The notes under the pieces are model-generated. The model searched no databases. It worked only from the letters and a program-made list of their open reading frames with translations, and was not told the DNA's origin. A stretch of DNA of 36,568 bases from Candidatus Gastranaerophilales bacterium (GTDB lineage Bacteria > Cyanobacteriota > Vampirovibrionia > Gastranaerophilales > Gastranaerophilaceae), in contig CALUWB010000016.1 of the NCBI GenBank assembly GCA_944324375.1, forward strand, positions 1 to 36,568. Reading direction: 5' to 3'. Shown piece by piece: positions 17,676-17,860 of this stretch. Positions within the stretch are counted from its first letter, which is position 1; the number at the start of each line of letters is the position of its first letter. Made by a program: the position numbers and the translations under genes.

Positions 17676-17696
17676 AAGCGCATGTAGCCCAGCTGG
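17676..17696 (+). pseudogene. 5' fragment of tRNA-Arg, duplicated
   Basis: A 21-bp copy of the sequence at 17782-17802 (the tRNA 5' end through the D loop) with one mismatch (CAT for CGT). The remainder of a tRNA is missing here. Confidence 0.75.
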
Positions 17697-17783
17697 CCTG
17701 TTGAATCTTTTACGAAGTAAAAGTTCAACAAAATAGAGAAAATAAGCTCTATCCAGCAGAGGTGAAACGAAGAAACTAATTAA
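17697..17783 (+). repeat. Hairpin-rich insert between tRNA copies
   Basis: This stretch is flanked by the 21-bp direct repeat. It holds a strong hairpin (17699-17730; arms TGTTGAA-CTTTTAC and GTAAAAG-TTCAACA, loop GAA, one bulged T), a second hairpin (ATAGAG 17733-17738 with CTCTAT 17747-17752), and a 12-mer GCTCTATCCAGC (17746-17757) exactly complementary to the tRNA D arm at 17798-17809. Confidence 0.6.
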
Positions 17784-17860
17784 GCGCGTGTAGCCCAGCT
17801 GGATAGAGCGTTTGGCTACGAACCAAAAGGTCGGGGGTTCGAATCCCTCCACGCGTACCA
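17784..17860 (+). tRNA. tRNA-Arg (anticodon ACG)
   Basis: The 77-nt cloverleaf has acceptor stem GCGCGTG/CACGCGT (one G-T pair at the end), a D arm GCCC..GAGC with one C-A mismatch, an anticodon stem TTTGG/CCAAA with loop CTACGAA giving ACG, variable AGGTC, a T arm GGGGG-TTCGAAT-CCCTC, discriminator A and an encoded CCA. ACG (inosine-modified) reads CGU, CGC and CGA. The encoded CCA and perfect T and anticodon stems support a functional gene. Confidence 0.95.

Follow-up and report, generated by a model that had tools for sequence, protein, structure and literature searches.

The window analysed here, a stretch of 36,568 nt from contig CALUWB010000016.1 of a Candidatus Gastranaerophilales bacterium (genome G000 in the following), carries an intact gene for tRNA-Arg(ACG) preceded by one copy of a module of about 106 nt, which separates the gene from a promoter-like site at 17629-17656 (Table 1). 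The module consists, in this order, of nucleotides 1-19 of the tRNA, a hairpin, a 12-nt antisense to the D arm and a short leader. An earlier note on this DNA had pointed out a copy of the tRNA 5' end 106 bp upstream of the gene, and this is borne out as a 22-bp direct repeat (17675-17696 and 17781-17802, 21/22 identical, 106 from start to start). The 12-nt complement to the D arm was likewise confirmed over all 12 positions, at a distance of 26 nt from the tRNA, so that 5' copy and antisense are both present. The same note had called such a match unexpected in so short a spacer. Indeed, when the 84-nt spacer was shuffled 20,000 times by mononucleotide, a 12-nt complement to the tRNA never appeared, with 11 nt reached in 3 shuffles and 10 nt in 19, and a chance origin of the complementarity is ruled out by these shuffles together with the existence of a module family (see below).

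Table 1. Features of the tRNA-Arg(ACG) locus (positions in the window).
Feature	Position	Strand	Remarks
Promoter-like site, TTGAAA-16-TAGTAT, extended -10	17629..17656	+	5' of module; also in the empty site of G005
tRNA 5' copy (3 nt of leader and tRNA nt 1-19)	17675..17696	+	ends after the GG of the D loop
Hairpin P2, TGTTGAA-CTTTTAC-GAA-GTAAAAG-TTCAACA	17699..17730	+	strong; compensatory changes in relatives
Local hairpin P3, ATAGAG/CTCTAT	17733..17752	+	masks 5' half of the antisense
D-arm antisense	17746..17757	+	12/12 complementary to 17798-17809
Leader between antisense and tRNA, 26 nt	17758..17783	+	
Intact tRNA-Arg(ACG)	17784..17860	+	antisense target is 17798-17809
Terminator-like perfect inverted repeat, T-rich 3' arm	17862..17895	+	adjoins tRNA 3' end; read by eye, outside the computed list

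Two hairpins and a separate antisense had been described between the copies. The first hairpin (P2) is strong, but the antisense is not separate from the second (P3), which contains its 5' half and looks, from its sequence, like a remnant of the 3' half of a D arm. A further helix, P1, is formed by the antisense with the D-stem and D-loop half of the tRNA copy. The proposal of a single promoter upstream of both copies agrees with the one promoter-like site found there, although the call is weak in itself, as the promoter scan gave 3 sites in the region against 2.0 expected. The scan detected no consensus promoter between the tRNA copy and the intact tRNA, and thus lends no support to a putative transcription start just before the mature tRNA. 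Between a glucose-6-phosphate isomerase-like gene and the tRNA promoter lies an ORF of 162 aa (17137-17625), acetyltransferase-like by eye, which strain G005 of the same genus lacks at the matching place.

Comparison of a 275-bp region with 58 genomes (its own and relatives) showed the insert as present, absent or tandem, depending on the genome. A covariance model of P2 enclosed by P1 was built from 14 modules, among them that of the window, whose score of 97.2 bits (17676-17767) is therefore a match by construction. At E <= 0.001 and with the seeds included, the model matches 68 of 383 genomes of the order Gastranaerophilales, in 22 of 52 genera, and in a draw across the phylum all of the 18 matching genomes (of 292) belong to this order. 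A total of 132 module matches was obtained in loci fetched from 81 sources, which had been picked as matching or as empty comparisons. Modules are about 75-130 nt long across the family, non-coding, and in sense orientation directly 5' of a tRNA gene in every locus read. The intact tRNAs beside covariance-model modules are Arg (ACG, CCG, TCT, CCT), Asp, Val and Gly. Modules occur singly or in tandem, with up to 5 units seen; many arrays reach the ends of contigs, so that these lengths are minima.

A census of tRNA genes, which counted a gene only if upstream copy and antisense both scored above all mononucleotide shuffles, found the architecture in G000 at 8 of 34 genes (Lys-TTT, Trp, Met, Val-GAC, Pro, Tyr, Phe and Arg-ACG), in the congener G005 at 8 of 32, and in G039, from another family, at 8 of the 29 examined out of 35 matches. 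About a quarter of the tRNA genes in these three genomes thus carry modules, and several further genes have just one of the two elements. Across the order, module-bearing tRNAs are of the types Arg, Lys, Met, Phe, Pro, Trp, Tyr, Val, Asp, Asn, Gly and Ala. The Arg-ACG module was matched in 2 of the 8 genomes of the genus and was not found in the other 6. Within the 45 nt preceding tRNA genes of G000, G005 and G039, a motif, TGANAANTNAATA, is exact in 15 of 28 leaders with an antisense and in 13 of 67 without, and near zero in shuffles; it resembles the TTGAAAACTGAATA stretch of Firmicutes rRNA spacers.

The complementarity is maintained in relatives and adjusted to each host tRNA, as the conservation check suggested by the earlier note revealed. 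The relevant set comprised 107 antisense units in 65 loci (13 without a copy found), of which 62 were the nearest units within 70 nt of a tRNA, 60 of them distinct. On average, the antisense of these 60 last modules fits 14.9 of 16 nt of its own tRNA, compared to 12.6 (sd 0.16) for permuted tRNAs, and none of 2000 permutations reached the observed value, a specificity that is inflated by the preselection of antisense windows at >=12/16 match to their own tRNA. The duplexes contain 895 Watson-Crick, 8 G-U, 3 A-C and 28 other cells. The antisense before the tRNA is 12-19 nt long, and lies 17-34 nt from the tRNA at 57 of the 60 distinct loci and 62-64 nt from it at the other three. At some Arg-CCG and Arg-TCT loci (L119, L126, L135) the copy is short or divergent and the antisense still fits the real tRNA. 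The alternative offered originally, that the insert is just a decayed insertion, is a poor fit to a family that preserves complementarity and readjusts it to every tRNA.

Hairpin types follow the D arms, as far as can be judged by eye. A CTTTTACGAAGTAAAAG-like hairpin occurs mainly with D arms of the form GCTCAG..AGAGC, and a second type with a GATTAAGTATC-like loop is found at Val-GAC, Lys-CTT and Met, whose D arms are of the form GGCGCAG..GTAGCGC; the antisense accompanying this second loop reads CTACCAAC, CTACCAC or CTACCGC, each suiting its tRNA. In arrays whose units are clearly unlike (L099, L104), the tRNA-proximal unit retains the match and the upstream units have lost it. A generally higher match in the last unit was rejected: in a scripted comparison of 27 arrays, few of them informative, the last unit was equal to the others in 21, higher in 5 (including L034, a truncated unit) and lower in 1 (L128, an over-long unit that was mis-sliced). 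At tRNA-Lys(CTT) of G005 (L188), an array of units of about 110 nt has decayed-looking upstream antisense sequences and a fitting tRNA-proximal one, and at the same tRNA in G000 (L189) a degenerate remnant is seen.

In P2, 5 of 11 pairs are altered on both sides; over the whole structure, 8 pairs show compensatory change compared to 3.1 in shuffles, with 0 of 500 shuffles reaching this value. In 118 distinct rows, the 25 G-U cells of P2 stand against a single A-C cell, an asymmetry suggesting that it is the transcribed strand that folds, bearing in mind that the rows are related, the cells non-independent and the alignment fitted to the model. P1 has no G-U excess (26 G-U vs 38 A-C, with 24 of the 38 A-C at the outermost pair). 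A stronger conservation of the D part of the copy relative to its acceptor part was not found in 57 loci, the D part being better conserved in 16 and worse in 14; the copied acceptor strand (nt 1-7), which is partnerless in the module, is conserved about equally to the D part. At 7 loci shared by G000 and G005, the two genomes have 93-98% identity over the 110 nt that precede the tRNA; in 5 of the 6 loci open to comparison, the adjoining 150 nt further upstream are less similar.

The earlier suggestion that the antisense competes with folding of the tRNA is matched by the structure predictions. The module alone (17663-17783) is predicted to fold into a three-way junction of P1, P2 and P3 in which the antisense is hidden, while in the minimum free energy (MFE) structure of 17663-17862 (-65.2 kcal/mol, z -5.4) the antisense is paired with the D arm. 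A module segment usable for folding was available for 56 of the 60 distinct modules. In all 56 precursors, a result inflated by the preselection mentioned above, antisense and D arm are base-paired in the predicted full-length structure; the trapped fold is favoured by 11.9 kcal/mol on average over module and tRNA folded apart, in a model that lacks the tertiary energy of the tRNA. In the module alone, the antisense is at least half paired internally in 51 of the 56, and the MFE structure flips to the antisense:D-arm pairing after 10-28 nt of the growing tRNA in 56/56. The local decoy P3 barely exceeds shuffled spacers (4.3 vs 3.8 nt). Two mutually exclusive and conserved folds, as expected of a cis-regulatory RNA switch, are thus predicted, subject to the selection bias stated.

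Gain and loss of modules can be followed among congeners. Strains G005 and G003 have an identical tRNA-Arg(ACG) without the insert, which is therefore dispensable at this locus. The earlier note had regarded absence of the insert beside an identical tRNA as evidence against its proposal. Such absence does occur, but leaves a function of the family unrefuted, because G005 is empty here and has the architecture at Arg-TCT and Asp; G000 in turn is empty at these two, where its promoter and flanks match those of G005. Arg-ACG, Arg-TCT and Asp thus each provide a clean pair of empty and filled sites with intact promoter. These differences may reflect gain or loss, as deletion between the direct repeats would yield the same empty sites. 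At Arg-TCT the leader within the module differs from the chromosomal leader, which argues against a simple local duplication there.

Such sites would also be expected from a tiny site-specific mobile element that enters the D loop of a tRNA gene after the GG and restores the gene with a new 5' half. The copy and the antisense would then form a folded single-strand recombination site, like attC or the attP of CTX phage, and the antisense would serve as targeting or site structure with no role in regulation. This explanation, which we consider rather unlikely, is favoured by the clean sites just described, by the direct repeats, tandem growth and contigs ending within arrays, by the module leader at Arg-TCT that differs from the chromosomal one, and by hairpin types common to tRNAs with similar D arms. 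The attP of CTX phage is known as a folded single-strand site, and integron attC is another (PMC2727003, available in part). The modules share with both the inverted target-site halves around a variable hairpin and the tandem accretion, and differ from them in that they have no gene cassettes and no special integrase was seen, and in that the target is the D arm of a tRNA; attC also recombines as bottom strand, whereas the G-U bias of the modules points to the top strand. The available part of PMC8371274 names the anticodon arm, the T arm and the 3' end as integration regions of bacterial tRNA genes; it assigns 5'-half sites to pTN3-like elements of archaea and calls them rare among bacteria. 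By the same partial account, integrative elements of tRNA genes resemble the modules in restoring the tRNA from their own copy, but the modules measure only about 0.1 kb, are geneless and have their breakpoint in the D loop.

A dedicated enzyme for such mobility was not seen in a search that covered reverse transcriptase, Y1 transposase and tyrosine recombinases. Reverse transcriptase (RVT_1) was found in 4 of 9 genomes searched and was absent from G000, G005, G033 and G039, all module-bearing (G000 is 97% complete, so that RVT_1 in a gap is possible). A Y1 transposase was found in 2 of 5 genomes searched and was absent from G000, G033 and G039. A present-day need for reverse transcriptase or Y1 mobility is thus unsupported, as there are module-bearing genomes without either. 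Tyrosine recombinases were detected in 5 of 5 genomes searched, with just 2 matches in G039, and this genome, with modules at 8/29 tRNA genes and neither RT nor Y1 transposase, speaks against a mobile element within a search of these three enzyme types. So do the lack of any module match among phage and plasmid sequences, the variation of hairpins by tRNA type within one genome and their unrelatedness between phyla, and the re-matching of the antisense to each tRNA, which goes beyond simple insertion. A viral origin was rejected separately, the sole pattern match on a viral contig being without tRNA and chance-like.

Repeats are also seen on the 3' side of tRNA-Arg(ACG). An exact copy of 19 nt of the tRNA 3' end lies at 18045-18063, with a shorter one near 18178, and partial complementarity to the T arm was detected in the same area (arms 17836-17876 and 17881-17921, 73%; regions 17881-18069 and 18178-18219). 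To judge from their layout, these copies look like a mirror image of the 5' module. Similar 3' signals appeared in the census at several tRNAs, e.g. Ser-GCT, Lys-TTT, Phe and Pro-GGG in G039. Two trailer blocks with terminator-like hairpins follow tRNA-Arg(ACG) (17862-18219) in an order swapped relative to G005 (L046), as if a new block had inserted at the 3' end of the tRNA. In contig C37 of G003, tRNA-Arg(ACG) (133035-133134) and a second copy of the 3' half with trailer (176715-176799) are about 43.7 kb apart, as would be expected for a large element integrated in the same tRNA. Copies of the tRNA on the 3' side too, in differing order among congeners, would fit the mobile-element explanation; the mirror layout as such would fit the mutational one that follows.

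The architecture extends beyond the order. A pattern scan of a collection of genome contigs returned 26 stretches, comprising 10 from Gastranaerophilales, one (L157) with the hairpin of this order, and 15 others. Seven of these 15 (L150, L152, L153, L158, L160, L161 and L165) have the architecture before a tRNA, with hairpins unrelated to those of the order. Their hosts are an Oscillospiraceae (Arg-CCG), two Peregrinibacteria (Val), a Peribacteraceae (Pro), a Saccharibacteria (His), Ca. Ancillula (His) and an unplaced bacterium (Arg-TCG). At the Saccharibacteria locus, L161, tRNA-His was recognised by eye at the edge, and a second case lies nearby at tRNA-Arg-TCT. The other matches were rejected as large fold-backs (L144, L169), as lacking a tRNA (L148, L149, L151, L166) or as lying on a tRNA of the opposite strand (L168), except for L147, which is assigned to neither group. 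In one wider phylum the strict pattern was present in 2 of 379 genomes, both previously found in the scan. The architecture is thus rare outside the order and has probably arisen more than once.

That the architecture recurs at 7 loci of distant groups with hairpins that are unrelated, and is rare there (2/379 genomes of one phylum), would suit an origin as a replication by-product, in which template switching at tRNA hairpins yields small inverted triplications, slippage enlarges the arrays, and correction of quasi-palindromes keeps the complementarity without selection. The succession of copy, inverted arm and copy is the layout of tandem inversion duplications and inverted triplications (PMC4689423, available in part), and within what this part describes the modules differ in that inversion is limited to the D arm, the joint carries a conserved hairpin and complementarity persists across genera. 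The good conservation of the acceptor copies fits this origin as well, and so does the module leader, which in some cases (L041) plainly reproduces the original one. Correction at the DNA level, however, would not predict the strand asymmetry of P2, within the limits of non-independent cells and a fitted alignment, nor would it be expected that the CTTTTACGAAGTAAAAG-type hairpin recurs across many genera while the leader varies, that spacing stays within 17-34 nt in 57/60 loci, that about a quarter of the tRNA genes are affected in three genomes, or that the module leader at Arg-TCT is no copy of the chromosomal one. We regard a by-product of replication as unlikely, though as a serious candidate.

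Action in trans is another conceivable explanation: arrays would be cut into small RNAs whose antisense binds tRNAs, their precursors or foreign tRNAs. That arrays contain multiple antisense copies, the majority of which could not pair together with a single cis tRNA, would be accounted for in this way. Against this stand the best fit of each antisense to its cis tRNA at a fixed spacing, the unavailability of the D arm for pairing in a folded mature tRNA, and, in the window, the lack of any sign of a separate promoter or terminator in the module, so that we consider action in trans very improbable.

No known RNA family accounts for the modules. In a search of the whole window against Rfam release 15, RF00005 (tRNA) was the sole match at the gathering score; at the relaxed threshold of E <= 1, no match fell on the module (region searched 17600-18300), and 16 related loci gave tRNA only, so that none of the known Rfam RNAs fits the modules tested. 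Amino-acid attenuators and T-box leaders are 5' leaders with mutually exclusive folds. The modules resemble them as 5' leaders in which two exclusive folds would, by prediction, decide the fate of a downstream RNA, and differ in having a tRNA as downstream product, a competing strand antisense to its D arm and a partial copy of the product in the leader; also unlike these systems, no terminator or Shine-Dalgarno switch was seen in the module. In Escherichia coli, the 178-bp repeats of tyrT, which give rise to rtT RNA, each contain the last 19 nt of tRNA-Tyr. Like these, the modules occur as tandem units that belong to the transcription unit of a tRNA and each contain part of it, but they lie on the 5' rather than the 3' side and have a matched D-arm antisense and a covarying hairpin. 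The architecture was not found described among open PMC papers, and the module looks like an undescribed kind of element.

The interpretation to which we incline, tentatively and at somewhat less than even confidence, is that the modules are a family of transcribed leaders, gained and lost, which may act on folding or maturation of the pre-tRNA. Each module, made up of a copy of the initial 13-20 nt of its tRNA, a variable hairpin, the D-arm antisense and an A-rich leader that connects it with the following copy or the tRNA, would be transcribed together with the tRNA. The folded module would keep the antisense hidden and leave the tRNA free to form its cloverleaf, whereas capture of the antisense by the D arm would trap the precursor in an unmatured state. 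During transcription, the D arm would race the module for the antisense, the copy serving as decoy, and the module may set the amount of functional tRNA or the condition of its making. Any single copy would be dispensable, because its loss by deletion between the direct repeats leaves an ordinary tRNA gene behind.

Several observations sit uneasily with such a leader function. A trap as strongly favoured as predicted should harm an essential tRNA unless kinetics, proteins or cleavage intervene. Conservation of the acceptor strand is not predicted by a function at the RNA level only, and the mirror repeats on the 3' side, which seem to lie beyond the terminators, are not explained by a cis role of the RNA. 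The lack of a G-U excess in P1, the near-shuffled level of P3 and the Arg-ACG module missing from 6 of 8 genomes of the genus also count against it.

It is tempting to speculate that the modules represent a lineage-specific, genome-wide control of tRNAs, in which removable modules on about a quarter of the tRNA genes combine a decoy of the 5' half with a D-arm antisense trap, output is set by a co-transcriptional race of strand exchange and by copy number, and the design has arisen independently in several phyla; we consider this extended version possible but doubtful. The modules escape automated annotation, as those tested fit no Rfam family other than tRNA and many arrays break contigs. Their existence raises the question of how a tRNA matures with 12-19 nt of antisense made just before it. 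Genes for tRNA are usually viewed as constitutive and simply built. If the proposed function is true, a self-blocking leader module would be a new control of translation capacity, and if the modules are mobile or a product of mutation, they would represent a novel type of parasite or rearrangement of tRNA genes.
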